Assembly: GCA_023819365.1 (NCBI GenBank)
Contig: JAMWBP010000037.1
Location: 1 to 6,573 of the forward strand
Direction: 5' to 3'
DNA from: Candidatus Omnitrophota bacterium
GTDB lineage: Bacteria; Ratteibacteria; UBA8468; B48-G9; JAFGKM01
DNA length: 6,573 nt
Part shown: positions 2,579 through 6,573 of the stretch, piece by piece
How the letters are laid out: each line of letters begins with the position of its first letter
Numbering within the stretch: position 1 is the stretch's first letter
Program-made: the position numbers and the translations under genes
Notes under the pieces: model-generated
Database searches by the model: none
The model's input: only the letters and a program-made list of their open reading frames with translations
What the model was told of the DNA's origin: nothing

Positions 2579-3322
2579 ATGGATAAAGAGATGAACTTTT
2601 GGGAGCATATAGAAGAATTACGCCGTAGAATTATAGTGTGTCTGATAACCCTCACAGTTGGTATGATGGTAGGTTTTCCTTTTAGCAGGTATGTTCTTAG
2701 AATTTTAAAATTACCGGGTTGCTCAGTGATAGATAAACTTGTATTCTTTAGTCCACAGGAAGGATTTTTAATTTATCTTCGTATATCTTTTTTAATTGGT
2801 TTGGTTCTGGCTTTTCCTGTTATTCTATATCAGGTCTGGGCATTCATTGCACCTGCAATAGAAAAGAAATTCAGGAGATATATTCTGAACTTTGTCTTTT
2901 CTGGCACAATTTTTTTTGTTATCGGTATGTGTTTTATCTATTTTATTCTTTTACCACCGGCATTTAAATTTTTGTTATCTTTTGCTTCTACGGAGATGGA
3001 ACCAGTAATTTCTGCCACTAGATATATCTCTTTCGTTATTGCCCTTCTTGTTGCTGGTGGTTTGGTTTTTCAGATGCCTGTCTTAAGTTTCCTTTTTACA
3101 AGGATAGGATTGATTAACTGGAGATTTCTTAAGGATAAATTCAAGTATGCAGTAGTCATAATTTTCATTTTAGCGGCACTCATCACTCCAACAGTTGATA
3201 TTTTTAATTTATTACTTCTGGCTATACCTATGATTTTTTTATATGGTGCAAGTATTTTTGTTTCTTTTCTTGTTCGTCCTAAAATAAGATATGAGCATAC
3301 TAAAGCATTACAGAACATTTAA
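2579..3322 (+). CDS. tatC: Sec-independent protein translocase TatC
   Basis: Polytopic membrane receptor for twin-arginine signal peptides; it recruits TatA. Of 247 residues, the family signatures are WEHIEELRRR at 8-17 (Glu13 matches E. coli Glu15), FPVILYQVWAFIAPA at 79-93 (Phe89 matches E. coli Phe94), and ITPTVDIFN at 202-210 followed by LLAIPM. About six hydrophobic helices are visible. Two residues differ from E. coli: Phe98 replaces Glu103 of the signal-peptide binding loop, and Gln165 replaces Glu170 (Gln is fairly common there). The ATG at 2579 has no Shine-Dalgarno match. A second ATG at 2591 would give MNFWEHIEELRRR, a very typical TatC start, with AAAGAG just upstream, so the protein may be four residues shorter. 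The last 32 bases overlap nqrA, which implies translational coupling. Confidence 0.95.
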   Translation: MDKEMNFWEHIEELRRRIIVCLITLTVGMMVGFPFSRYVLRILKLPGCSVIDKLVFFSPQEGFLIYLRISFLIGLVLAFPVILYQVWAFIAPAIEKKFRRYILNFVFSGTIFFVIGMCFIYFILLPPAFKFLLSFASTEMEPVISATRYISFVIALLVAGGLVFQMPVLSFLFTRIGLINWRFLKDKFKYAVVIIFILAALITPTVDIFNLLLLAIPMIFLYGASIFVSFLVRPKIRYEHTKALQNI

Positions 3323-4781
3323 AGGTGGGTATAAGTTTTTTAATTTCACTGGACAGCCCCAGGATATTATTATTGACCTCGGGGTTCCTAAGGTAATATT
3401 TATTCCTCTAAGGCAGGGTTTTGGAGTGGAAGTGAAGCCAGTTGTTAAAGTTGGAGACCAAGTCAAAACAGGACAAATAATTGGGAGAGACGATGAAAAT
3501 GTCTCTTCTCCTGTCCATTCAAGTATAAGTGGTAAAGTAAAAGAAATAGTTAAGAAAAATTATTTTGGTAGAGAAGTAACATTTATAGTTGTTGAAGGAG
3601 ATGGGAAAGATGAATTGGAAAAACTTCCTTTCTCTGAAAAAAACTGGGAAAAACTTACTGAAGAAGAACTTGAAACAAAGTTGTATCTTTCTGGAGTAAC
3701 TTCCCTTGGGCCATCCGGTATTCCTACAAGATATAGAAGTTCAGTCATAGGACTTAAAGAAGTGGAAAATTTGATAATCCATGGACTTGGTTCAGAGCCT
3801 TACAATATCTGTTTAAAAACTTTATTGAAGGGAAAAAATATCTTTTACTTTATCGAAGGTTTGAAGATTCTAAAAAAATTGTTGCCAAATGCAAAGATAT
3901 ATCTCTGTTTAAACTCGGAAGAGAAAAGGATAATTGAAGAAATAGGGAAATTAACCTCTGATATCCAATGGCTTGAAATTTCACTACTTGAGTCAAAATA
4001 TCCTCAGGGTTATGATGAAATGTTAATACCAATAGTTTTGGGCAAAAAGTTTCCTTATGGTTATTCAGCAGCAAACATTGGTATTATCAGTTTAAATATC
4101 AGTGCAGTACTACATGTATATGAAGCAATAGTTGATGGAAAACCATTAATTGACAGAATAATAACTTTAAGTGGCCCTTGCTTTAAAGAAAATCCACATA
4201 TTAAAGTCCGTATTGGAACTCCCATTGGTGAAATTGTTAAAGATTATCTTAAGTCCGAAGTAAAGGTGCGTCTTATAATGAATAGTTTGATGCGAGGTTA
4301 TGAATTAAAGGATTATTCTTTACCTATGGATAGAACATATACACATATCATTGCTATCCCTGAAAATACAGAAAGAAAATTATTTTCATTTTTAAGGTTG
4401 GGGTTGCATTCTTATTCTTACTCATCTTGTTTTTTGACCTTTAATAAATTGGAAAAATATCCAGATACAAATATTCATGGAGAGGAAAGACCATGTATTT
4501 CCTGCGGATATTGCGAAGAAGTTTGTCCGGTACGAATCATTCCACATTTATTAAGTAAAATTGTAGTGAAACATCTGGTTAATGAGAAACTTATGCATTA
4601 TGGAATTTTTAATTGTATTGAATGTAATCTTTGCAGTTTTGTATGTCCATCAAAAATACCTATTACAAAATATATCAAGGAAGGCCAGGAAAAACTTATT
4701 ATTCAAGGATGTGATAGAAGTCGGTGTATCTTACCATATTTTAATTTGAAAGGCCTTGAAGAGTATCAGGGTATAAAGTGA
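3291..4781 (+). CDS. nqrA: NqrA-like subunit of sodium-translocating NADH:quinone reductase, with RnfC-type 2[4Fe-4S] domain
   Basis: Peripheral cytoplasmic subunit of the Nqr complex, homologous to RnfC. The N-terminal biotinyl-like domain (FKGGYKF at 10-16, VKVGDQVKTGQIIG at 52-65, SSPVHSSISGKVKEI at 72-86) and the SLBB-type region (GKPLIDRIITLSGP at 283-296, then RIGTPIGEIV at 307-316) are shared by NqrA and RnfC. The stretch at 324-380, with ERKLFSFLRLG at 361-371, aligns by eye with NqrA. The C-terminus has two intact CxxCxxCxxxCP motifs: Cys402/405/408/412 and Cys442/445/448/452. Classical NqrA keeps only a remnant (LCTFVCPGK) of the second. GVTSLGPSGIPT at 135-146 stands where RnfC has its GGAGFPT flavin/NADH motif. 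A further CxxxxC pair (474, 479) follows. At 496 aa it is longer than Vibrio NqrA (about 446). It starts inside tatC without a Shine-Dalgarno site, and no later in-frame start precedes the conserved FKGG. The neighbours nqrB, nqrC and nqrD favour the Nqr name; RnfC is the alternative. Confidence 0.87.
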   Translation: MSILKHYRTFKGGYKFFNFTGQPQDIIIDLGVPKVIFIPLRQGFGVEVKPVVKVGDQVKTGQIIGRDDENVSSPVHSSISGKVKEIVKKNYFGREVTFIVVEGDGKDELEKLPFSEKNWEKLTEEELETKLYLSGVTSLGPSGIPTRYRSSVIGLKEVENLIIHGLGSEPYNICLKTLLKGKNIFYFIEGLKILKKLLPNAKIYLCLNSEEKRIIEEIGKLTSDIQWLEISLLESKYPQGYDEMLIPIVLGKKFPYGYSAANIGIISLNISAVLHVYEAIVDGKPLIDRIITLSGPCFKENPHIKVRIGTPIGEIVKDYLKSEVKVRLIMNSLMRGYELKDYSLPMDRTYTHIIAIPENTERKLFSFLRLGLHSYSYSSCFLTFNKLEKYPDTNIHGEERPCISCGYCEEVCPVRIIPHLLSKIVVKHLVNEKLMHYGIFNCIECNLCSFVCPSKIPITKYIKEGQEKLIIQGCDRSRCILPYFNLKGLEEYQGIK

Positions 4782-5854
4782 ATATGATAAGGAAAATACT
4801 TAATTTGGGGTATCAGTTGTTAGAGAAAAATAAAAAACTTAAAAAGTTAAAACCAGTTTTAGAGGCAGTAGATGGTTTCTTTTTCGGAACTGATAAAGTA
4901 ACAACCTTTACTCCTTACATCCTTGACTACCTTGATATAAAAAGATTTATGGCAACTGTAATTTTAGCTCTTTTACCATCTGTTTTGGCATCTATTTACT
5001 TTTATGGTATAAGAGTCATTCTTATCATTCTTGTCTCTTATATTTTTGGTGGATTGTGTGAGATTGCTTTTGCTGTTATAAGGAAGAAAGAGATAGAAGA
5101 AGGTTTTCTTGTTACTGGCTTGATTTTCCCTTTGATTCTACCTCCTACTGTCCCACTTTGGGTTGTGGCTGTTGGAATTGTTTTTGGAGTAATTTTTGGG
5201 AAAGAGGTTTTTGGTGGAACAGGGAGAAACATTTTTAATCCTGCCCTTGCTGGCAGGGTATTTATTACAATCTCTTTCCCTAAAATAATGACCGTGGATT
5301 GGTATCAACCATTGGTAAGTGGATGGGCAGGCTTTAACAGATTTAAACCAGATACTGTAACTTCTGCTACACCTTTAATGTTATATAAAAGTGATAAAAT
5401 TCTCACATCTTTCAAAGATTTACTCTTGGGCCTTTCCCCTGGTTGTATAGGAGAGACATTTAGATTAGGTATAATTATTGGTGGAATTTTCCTTGTTTTA
5501 ACAAGGGTTGCTAACTGGCGTATCCCATTAACTTACTTAATTTCAGTCTTTTTCTTATCTTATTTTGGAAATCTTCTCTTCCCTGAAAAATTTGGTCCAC
5601 CTATTTTCCAGTTATTGACTGGAGGATTACTTTTTGGTGCTTTTTTTATGGCGACAGACCCTGTTACAAGCCCATTTACAAATTCTGGGAAGTTGATAGC
5701 AGGGGTCCTGTTAGGATTTTTAACAGTGATTATAAGAACTTTTTCTGGATATGTAGAAGGAGTAATGTTTTCAATTTTATTAATGAATGCTTTTACTCCT
5801 CTAATTGACTATTTAGTTGTTGAGAGAAGATATAAGCCAAATAATAAAAGATGA
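4778..5854 (+). CDS. nqrB: Na+-translocating NADH:quinone reductase subunit B
   Basis: Integral membrane subunit that carries covalent FMN and, in Vibrio, riboflavin and the quinone site; it is central to sodium transport. NqrB signatures are LDIKRFMATVILALLPS at 52-68, EEGFLVTGLIFPLILPPT at 107-124, GKEVFGGTGRNIFNPALAGR at 141-160, GLLFGAFFMATDPVTSPFTN at 283-302 and YLVVERRY near the C-terminus. Thr198 in TSAT is the expected phosphoester FMN attachment site (Vibrio SGAT). The soluble N-terminal stretch with GTDKVTTFTPYILD at 37-50 is NqrB-like and differs from RnfD, which lacks it. At 358 aa it is shorter than Vibrio NqrB (about 415) and close to RnfD length. The GTG start overlaps the nqrA stop as GTGA. 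An ATG six bases later (4784) would remove only two residues and is equally possible. AGGGT at 4768-4772 is a weak ribosome site. Confidence 0.95.
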   Translation: MNMIRKILNLGYQLLEKNKKLKKLKPVLEAVDGFFFGTDKVTTFTPYILDYLDIKRFMATVILALLPSVLASIYFYGIRVILIILVSYIFGGLCEIAFAVIRKKEIEEGFLVTGLIFPLILPPTVPLWVVAVGIVFGVIFGKEVFGGTGRNIFNPALAGRVFITISFPKIMTVDWYQPLVSGWAGFNRFKPDTVTSATPLMLYKSDKILTSFKDLLLGLSPGCIGETFRLGIIIGGIFLVLTRVANWRIPLTYLISVFFLSYFGNLLFPEKFGPPIFQLLTGGLLFGAFFMATDPVTSPFTNSGKLIAGVLLGFLTVIIRTFSGYVEGVMFSILLMNAFTPLIDYLVVERRYKPNNKR

Positions 5855-6429
5855 AAGAGAAAATAAAGATTATACTTTTTGTTATTGTTCTTGGCATGGT
5901 TAGTGGTTCTATCCTTTTAGGTGTAAACAGATATACGGAAAGCAGAATTCTACAAAACCAGCAATTAAAAATTAAAAAAGCAGTATTAGATGTTTTTGAG
6001 ATACCTTATACAAAAGAAAATATAGAAACAGTTTTTAATCAGAATGTGGAAATAGTTAAATTTGATGGTGTCTCTTTTTATATATCGAAAGAGAAAGCAG
6101 TTGCTTTTGAATTTTCTGGTTCAGGTCTATGGGGGCCTATCCATGGAGTTATTGCTCTAAATAATGATATGAATACACTCAAGGGTATAAGTATAATCCA
6201 TCAAGAAGAAACACCGGGACTTGGAGGAAGAAGTGCTGAAAAGGATTATCTTGCCCAGTTTAAAGGTAAAAAATTTTTGCCGGAGATTAAGATTGTTCCT
6301 GCTGGAAAATCTAAAGGAGAAAATGAAGTTGATGCAATCACAGGAGCAACAGGAACAAGTAAATCTTTTGAGACACTTTTAAATGCAAATATTCAAAAAA
6401 AATTGGATTTATTTAAACAAAGGAGATAA
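5851..6429 (+). CDS. nqrC: Na+-translocating NADH:quinone reductase subunit C
   Basis: Membrane-anchored FMN protein whose flavin domain faces the periplasm. One N-terminal transmembrane helix at about 6-25 follows a lysine-rich MKEKIK start. The FMN-binding domain contains FSGSGLWGPIHGVIAL at 88-103 and EETPGLGGR at 119-127, both typical of NqrC (RnfG proteins usually show GYxGxI and ETPGLG without the GLWGPI form). Thr167 in TGAT (164-167), preceded by Asp161, is the predicted covalent FMN site, normally loaded by ApbE; no apbE is in the window. At 192 aa it is clearly shorter than Vibrio NqrC (about 257) and near RnfG size. The ATG overlaps the nqrB stop as ATGA, indicating coupled translation. 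Its 3' end contains the ribosome site for nqrD. Confidence 0.95.
   Translation: MKEKIKIILFVIVLGMVSGSILLGVNRYTESRILQNQQLKIKKAVLDVFEIPYTKENIETVFNQNVEIVKFDGVSFYISKEKAVAFEFSGSGLWGPIHGVIALNNDMNTLKGISIIHQEETPGLGGRSAEKDYLAQFKGKKFLPEIKIVPAGKSKGENEVDAITGATGTSKSFETLLNANIQKKLDLFKQRR
6421..6425 (+). promoter_or_regulatory. Ribosome binding site for nqrD
   Basis: AGGAG within AAAGGAGATAAC lies 6 bases before the ATG at 6432 and inside the last codons of nqrC. It fixes the nqrD start and ties its translation to the upstream gene. Confidence 0.85.
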
Positions 6430-6431
6430 CT

Positions 6432-6573
6432 ATGCCCAAAAAAAGTTGGAAAAGATTATTATATACTAAAAATTTTAGAATCATAACTGGAGGGTTATGG
6501 CGGGACAATCCGATCTTCTGTATGATCTTAGGGATATGCTCATCTCTGGCAATTACAAACAAGGTAGAGAATG
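6432..6573 (+). CDS. nqrD: Na+-translocating NADH:quinone reductase subunit D, N-terminal part (cut by window edge)
   Basis: Only the first 47 codons are present; the gene runs off the right edge. The N-terminus is MPKKSWKRLLYTKNF, followed by GLWRDNPIFCMILGICSSLA and ITNKVEN. The DNP and LGICSxLAIT pattern is the start of the NqrD/RnfE membrane family. The Ser in LGICS favours NqrD, because RnfE proteins usually have LGLCPALAVT. NqrD is an integral membrane subunit that, with NqrE, holds an intramembrane iron-sulfur cluster ligated by cysteines; Cys36 in LGICS is the expected ligand contributed by this half. Two bases separate the nqrC stop from the ATG, so it belongs to the same transcript. 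In either an Nqr or an Rnf operon the next gene should be nqrE/rnfA; nqrF or rnfB after that would decide the type. Confidence 0.9.
   Translation, partial: MPKKSWKRLLYTKNFRIITGGLWRDNPIFCMILGICSSLAITNKVEN

Follow-up and report, generated by a model that had tools for sequence, protein, structure and literature searches.

The stretch of DNA analysed here (the window) is a complete contig (C22) of 6573 bases, one of 220 contigs in an assembly that is 54% complete. ORF calling and profile searches place on its plus strand, in this order, an acetyl-CoA synthetase-like gene, tatC, an nqrA-type gene, nqrB, nqrC and a partial nqrD. The A subunit carries eight cysteines of the RnfC cluster type and is called FeS-NqrA below. 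The genes, and the features within them that bear on what follows, are:

338–2368, + strand: acetyl-CoA synthetase-like gene (acs)
2579–3322, + strand: tatC
3291–4781, + strand: nqrA-type subunit with eight RnfC-type cluster cysteines (FeS-NqrA), 496 aa
3693–3743, + strand: loop at the site of the RnfC GxGGAxFPT FMN loop, residues 135–151, GVTSLGPSGIPTRYRSS (from the alignment)
3768–3824, + strand: loop at the site of the RnfC NxxECEPY FMN/NAD loop, residues 160–178, NLIIHGLGSEPYNICLKTL (from the alignment)
4494–4526, + strand: first [4Fe-4S] motif, C402-x2-C405-x2-C408-x3-C412-P, invariant in 121 of 121 aligned rows
4614–4646, + strand: second [4Fe-4S] motif, C442-x2-C445-x2-C448-x3-C452-P, invariant in 121 of 121 aligned rows
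4695–4778, + strand: C-terminal tail of FeS-NqrA, residues 469–496 (from comparison of tails)
4778–5854, + strand: nqrB, 358 aa (PF03116; NqrB/RnfD tree)
4778–4918, + strand: N-terminal extension of NqrB (from the alignment with RnfD)
5048–5062, + strand: GGLCE in NqrB, at the site of classic GGFWE (from the alignment)
5360–5377, + strand: TSATPL, predicted covalent FMN site of NqrB (sequence motif; function from the family)
5851–6429, + strand: nqrC, 192 aa (PF04205, FMN_bind)
6340–6360, + strand: TGATGTS, predicted covalent FMN site of NqrC (sequence motif; function from the family)
6432–6573, + strand: nqrD, first 47 residues, the rest cut by the contig end (complete in locus L040)

The nqrABCD order given in the original prediction stands as far as the contig reaches: nqrB and nqrC follow the A subunit and nqrD begins, but only its first 47 residues are present. 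The B and C partners are as clear as had been claimed, with PF03116 in NqrB and PF04205 in NqrC. Upstream, positions 51–382 hold a CRISPR-like array of five repeats of about 36 nt with a spacing of 72–73 nt, the last copy being degenerate at its end. The acs ORF start at 338 falls on this last repeat, and the true start of the gene therefore probably lies beyond 338.

The nearest relative of the locus, L040, comes from a 'Candidatus Omnitrophota' MAG from Tibet, and its FeS-NqrA is the same protein as that of genome G013, which belongs to the same family as the window's genome. Elsewhere in the window's own genome (G000), contig C27 (L006) carries a separate set in which genes resembling rnfD, G, E and A come after an ordinary rnfC, so that Rnf and the FeS-NqrA type of Nqr coexist in one genome. 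A further RnfC-like protein, cut at 399 aa (its kin have about 700 aa), lies on contig C55 (L007) and falls into a separate clade of longer RnfC-like proteins in the A-subunit tree. Its neighbours look like methylene-THF reductase and formate-THF ligase, as in acetogens.

Cluster motifs, flavin loops and the NqrB partner

The cysteines at 402, 405, 408, 412, 442, 445, 448 and 452 of FeS-NqrA, with codons running from 4494 to 4646, are the residues that had been predicted, and all lie in the ORF at 3291–4781; further cysteines are found at 174, 206, 297, 380, 474 and 479. Relatives were taken as the best 120 of 3301 database matches, the window's own protein (P0001) included. None of the 121 aligned rows (the window protein twice and each of the 119 relatives, which are 54–87% identical to it) lacks any of the eight cysteines; this invariance argues that the cysteine set is no product of chance. 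Two full CxxCxxCxxxCP motifs are present in all 120 proteins (best 120 of 3301), as against none of 13 classic NqrA rows. With the last position relaxed to CxxCxxCxxxC[PS], the two motifs occur in 35 of 35 RnfC-type rows (30 RnfC and five longer RnfC-like proteins) and 23 of 23 FeS-NqrA rows (including two identical pairs and the short L054, 403 aa, which was retained), but again in 0 of 13 classic NqrA rows. The latter have between zero and three cysteines at the eight columns; they represent 13 of 15 genomes, L073 and L074 being left out of trees and counts because wrong frames had been called. The vestige of the second motif that Vibrio NqrA was said to keep is visible in the alignment as its last part alone, LCTFVCPGK. 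Mis-assembly or a single-genome oddity is ruled out by the 119 relatives listed, which come from several sources, together with 15 loci in other genomes. A structure prediction, which had been proposed as a check, gives the window's NqrA an RnfC-type fold in the model, and its best PDB matches are RnfC. FeS-NqrA likely carries two [4Fe-4S] clusters, judging from these motifs.

The part of RnfC that binds flavin is a different matter. In RnfC, a pocket like that of NuoF is described as binding FMN and NAD (PMC9588780, PMC11889175), and the RnfC FMN-loop motifs GxGGAxFP and NxxECEP are found in all 35 RnfC-type rows, whereas they occur in 0 of 23 FeS-NqrA rows and in 0 of 120 proteins (best 120 of 3301, the window's included). 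The usual FeS-NqrA readings at the two loops are [ST]LDREGIPT and HGVGSEPYN (in the window, SLGPSGIPT and HGLGSEPYN). H164, S168 and E169 are invariant in the 121 rows, but not in the loci L048 (PAIGFDVYN) and L078 (HGIGSDVYS). In a set of 50 aligned rows, the residues Y132, G143, P145, T146, H164, S168, E169, Y237, G240, D242 and E243 of the old pocket are all invariant, and its second half, YPQG (residues 237–240), is retained. FMN would therefore have been lost or replaced in FeS-NqrA; the loss of the RnfC loop motifs argues against NAD(H) exchange at this subunit, and a different ligand in the old FMN pocket is possible because the YPQG half is kept. On the same reading, the clusters likely outlasted the FMN/NAD site.

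The C-terminal tail of FeS-NqrA extends further than those of the RnfC and classic NqrA rows inspected and carries a GCDRxxC motif; of 121 rows (window counted twice), 120 have C474 and 119 have C479. Neither cysteine is found in L048 or L091, or in the small number of RnfC and classic NqrA tails compared.

Against the curated NCBIfam models, the A subunit passes rnfC (285.7 versus a cut-off of 245.95 bits) and misses nqrA (130.5 versus 321.05), NqrB passes rnfD (284.5 versus 207.05) and misses nqrB (TIGR01937; 308.1 versus 349.9), and NqrC lies below both of its cut-offs, nqrC and rnfG. By these models the A and B subunits are in-between forms, neither standard NqrA nor standard NqrB, as would be expected of a lineage that split off early. 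The N-terminal extension of NqrB is missing in five of six RnfD rows, the sixth (L025, perhaps an over-long ORF) having unlike residues there. In the alignment, GGLCE of the window's NqrB stands at the column of GGFWE in most classic NqrB rows, and we take this column to hold quinone-site residues. At this column GGxxE occurs in 10 of 11 non-classic Nqr rows, L090 being the exception, and in none of the six RnfD rows. The window's NqrB does not have a stretch of some 20–50 residues found early in classic NqrB. In Vibrio cholerae NqrB, the quinone pocket is described as being formed by two N-terminal amphipathic helices (PMC12174285).

Downstream genes and the NADH front end

The contig ends in nqrD, and the question raised in the original prediction of whether nqrF or rnfB lies downstream was answered in relatives. 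Twelve operons of the FeS-NqrA type are readable past nqrE; all have the order nqrA-B-C-D-E followed by nqrF or an nqrF-like gene, and rnfB is found in none of the 12. The F gene is complete, of FAD type and 357–376 aa long in nine of the 12; that of L040 is cut at 242 aa with its FAD part visible. FAD-type F genes are those of L040, L041, L042, L044, L047 and L049–L053, and the product of the L053 gene, with ferredoxin, FAD and NAD domains, scores 311.2 bits (nqrF cut-off, 295). Among ten genomes queried (from 15 loci), NqrF is over the TIGR01941 cut-off in nine, and the tenth has a NuoE-fused form. The window's own assembly, at 54% completeness, contains no nqrF over the cut-off and two weak matches below it; by analogy with the relatives, its organism would be expected to have NqrF. 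The presence of an additional NqrA of classic type is ruled out, since none is over the cut-off in 16 FeS-NqrA genomes.

Two of the 12 operons with a readable F gene have a different front end. In these, a protein of 317 aa joins the N-terminus and ferredoxin domain of NqrF to a NuoE-type domain (PF01257), which stands in for the FAD/NADH part of NqrF:

L048, 14420–15373: NqrF–NuoE fusion in an Nqr operon with an eight-cysteine NqrA
L091, 11715–12668: NqrF–NuoE fusion in an Nqr operon with an eight-cysteine NqrA

A NuoF/HydB-like protein adjoins the fusion in both loci (in L048 as two ORFs, 135 and 603 aa), and in L091 a 201-aa protein resembling the N-terminus of HydA/NuoG also follows. The loci thus share a NuoE-type domain and a NuoF/HydB-like neighbour with the HydB/NuoF and NuoE/HydC modules; NuoE/NuoF modules are known from hydrogenases and complex I, whereas here they lie within an Nqr operon. 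The nearest relative of the window, L040, has no such front. A database search with the L091 fusion returned 1085 proteins at E 1e-30, and both domains are present in all of the best 120 of these, the query included. Among 242 genomes, a whole-length match to the fusion is found in G120 alone, the source of L091, and the NuoE part alone matches in seven more. Titles from a literature search on NqrF, NuoE and NuoF gave no pointer to such a fusion. L048 and L091 are also the loci in which loss of the tail cysteines was seen, but we claim no link with the NuoE-type front: P0090 and P0102, which lie on contigs of the same lengths as those of the NuoE fusions P0233 and P0122, keep both cysteines.

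Position between RnfC and classic NqrA

In a tree of NqrB and RnfD, 27 Nqr rows (15 of the FeS-NqrA kind, nine classic and three others) split from 28 RnfD rows at 100/100; the nine classic rows are those with NqrB inside the locus, L074 being left out. The order inside Nqr is less resolved, with genomes G035 and G178 placed loosely with the FeS-NqrA kind (95/76). A search of 242 genomes with the NqrA model found classic NqrA above the cut-off in 15, and intermediate scores in a few more. Among the latter, G035, G178 and G182 have all eight cysteines and a FAD-type nqrF, that of G035 lying slightly below the nqrF cut-off (286.7 versus 295). G035 retains a partial FMN loop, GKGGFPT, and in G178 and G182 the loop is erased. 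On contig C66 of G035 (L055, L056), an rnfCDGEAB-like set occurs together with a rearranged nqrBCDE-x-nqrA-nqrF set, the NqrA of which has the eight cysteines.

The tree of the A subunit, the comparison with RnfC and NqrA for which the original prediction had called, places the window protein outside RnfC, between RnfC and classic NqrA. With the root assumed on the RnfC side, the order is RnfC, G035, FeS-NqrA (100/98), G178, G182 and classic NqrA (100/100), and G178, G182 and classic NqrA group together at 100/94. A second tree, from which the trait columns (FMN loops and the entire cluster domain) were removed and L058 was left out, gives the same order, with G178, G182 and the classic group at 99/95 and the order of G178 and G182 weak (95/43). 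Both are long branches, and the NqrB of G178 is without GGxxE.

The claim that the complex is Nqr-like and yet keeps the RnfC cluster cysteines intact is borne out by nqrF in the relatives, by the NqrB tree and by the A-subunit tree. The feature is real and conserved, and it is other than ordinary RnfC. FeS-NqrA shares with RnfC (PDB 7zc6, 9eri, 8ahx) the two [4Fe-4S] motifs and a score over the rnfC cut-off. It differs in having no FMN-loop motifs, a longer tail with two more conserved cysteines, nqrF in place of rnfB in its relatives and a tree branch of its own. With classic NqrA (PDB 8a1y, 7xk3) it has in common the first place in nqrABCDEF, an NqrB partner with an N-terminal extension, and homology over its full length, the region ahead of the cluster domain included; it differs in having all eight cysteines, whereas classic NqrA, described as cofactor-free (PMC12174285), has at most three of the eight.

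The simplest reading of the tree is probably that the FMN site was lost first and the clusters last, once. RnfC has been proposed to lose its FMN/NAD sites and cluster cysteines on the way to NqrA (PMC4014512). The intermediate outlined there by Reyes-Prieto et al. (2014) has RnfB lost first, with NqrF recruitment next after that loss and eventual loss of the sites; in comparison with that scheme as outlined, NqrF is present in the relatives of the window while the cysteines are still intact. This suggests an order of steps from Rnf to Nqr: gain of NqrF and loss of the FMN/NAD site with the clusters still in place, and loss of the clusters at the end. The branch leading to classic NqrA would probably be where the clusters went, after the FMN/NAD site.

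Proposed electron routes and the possible role of NqrA

In the Rnf complex of C. tetanomorphum, electrons are described as passing from the riboflavin of RnfD to the near cluster of RnfC (11.7 Å), the other cluster, FMN and NAD+, and the RnfC clusters are placed downstream of the membrane steps (PMC9588780). Because the clusters follow the membrane steps in Rnf, electron exit at NqrA is at least as likely as entry; and because FeS-NqrA combines the cluster sites of RnfC with an Nqr-type input and has no FMN motif, it may be read as a one-electron branch off riboflavin, beside the quinone pocket of NqrB. Our leading reading, to which we give a little under an even chance, is that of an Nqr-type A subunit with both RnfC cluster motifs and no FMN motifs, in which the likely clusters would be a one-electron side port off the riboflavin of NqrB. 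By homology, electrons would pass from NADH to FAD and [2Fe-2S] in NqrF, on to the NqrD/E cluster, then to FMN in NqrC and to FMN and riboflavin in NqrB. Riboflavin would hand them either to a lipid quinone in the N-terminal pocket of NqrB or, by way of the cluster pair in NqrA, to a soluble protein that carries single electrons, and NqrA without FMN would provide no one-electron-to-two-electron step to NAD(H). In this scheme we infer the occupancy of the clusters, the loss of FMN, and the side port with its direction and partner. An obvious soluble partner gene beside nqrA was not seen in L040, L042, L052 or L053, the flanks of which were fully listed.

The quinone side of the scheme was followed in the same genomes. 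The menaquinone headgroup route finds little in them: MqnA/D is present in one of 14 genomes and MenD is over the cut-off in two of 16. Both are missing in 11 of 14 genomes searched for both; this counts against a simple quinone story, although as evidence the absence is weak because completeness is unstated for ten of the genomes and is 54% and 59% for two. A UbiA-family prenyltransferase is present in 14 of 16 genomes, and in L041, L042, L049 and L053 a UbiA-type gene adjoins nqrF or lies at most two genes away. That of L053 is closest to MenA models and is followed by a polyprenyl diphosphate synthase-like gene, both scoring below curated cut-offs. Within the window's phylum, FeS-NqrA is found in two of 35 genomes examined, the window's own included, which rules out a wide spread there.

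The same eight cysteines would also serve a second entry site, as the original prediction proposed, with ferredoxin or another one-electron donor feeding electrons through the clusters to riboflavin and quinone. A part for reduced ferredoxin is likely, since 13 of 16 FeS-NqrA genomes also have an rnfB over its cut-off, and a one-electron donor fits the missing FMN motif; judged by the Rnf pathway (PMC9588780), however, such electrons would join the chain past the membrane crossing and drive no forward pumping, and no donor gene is seen beside nqrA in the four fully listed loci. We regard this entry site as unlikely, though a serious contender. Clusters that are purely structural, pinning the C-terminal domain of NqrA to NqrB and carrying no electrons, are likewise unlikely. 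V. cholerae NqrA, described as cofactor-free, is presumed to have a structural role (PMC12174285, PMC4014512), the quinone exit at NqrB would already be enough, and a structural need could equally cause cysteine invariance. Against this stand that invariance itself, in the window and its 119 relatives (best 120 of 3301, P0001 included), and the retention of the cysteines in three more distant lineages, two with their FMN loops erased, which points to selection on the clusters.

The invariant residues of the old pocket loops in 50 aligned rows, the retained YPQG and the GKGGFPT loop of G035 would suit a pocket that binds an altered flavin, so that NqrA still traded electrons with a two-electron carrier such as NAD(H); given that the GxGGAxFP and NxxECEP motifs universal in the RnfC-type rows appear in none of the 120 proteins, we consider this improbable. 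A plain RnfC in an ordinary Rnf complex is hardly credible: it would account for the rnfC and rnfD cut-offs passed and for RnfC as the top PDB match, but it is contradicted by the nqrF or nqrF-like genes in place of rnfB in the 12 operons, by the missing FMN motifs, by the grouping of NqrB with Nqr at 100/100 and by the separate ordinary rnfC set on contig C27. Ordinary RnfC is rejected on the strength of the gene order, the missing FMN motifs and the NqrB tree. The one-electron side port off riboflavin has a bolder form, which we think doubtful: a third redox port in an undescribed, widespread Nqr class, in which riboflavin would split NADH electrons between quinone and a soluble low-potential carrier, or in which exit would be through NqrA alone without quinone.

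NqrA is described as being without cofactors (PMC12174285, PMC11889175, PMC9588780) and as having lost them, and the review text available gives it no direct function (PMC12174285, PMC11889175). No description of an NqrA with clusters was found in the literature searched, mostly open papers without preprints, as far as their accessible text goes; in an Antarctic-lake study, Nqr is tabulated for one Omnitrophota genus (PMC8542988). In databases, 10 of the 119 relatives listed (best 120 of 3301, P0001 included) bear the JGI name 'NADH:ubiquinone oxidoreductase A subunit', without remark on the clusters, and other relatives the NCBI name '4Fe-4S dicluster domain-containing protein'; beyond the JGI name, no description of such relatives as standard NqrA was found in this literature. 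The protein is best filed under a variant of the Nqr complex whose NqrA is of FeS type, rather than under standard NqrA.

An Nqr with both cluster sites in its A subunit offers a handle on the purpose of NqrA. It likely has two clusters where the Nqr pumps studied have none, and it would preserve an intermediate step from Rnf to Nqr. If the third-port reading were true, these organisms would hold a living and functional intermediate on the way from Rnf to Nqr, with an NADH front that can be swapped between an FAD-type NqrF and a NuoE/NuoF-type module.
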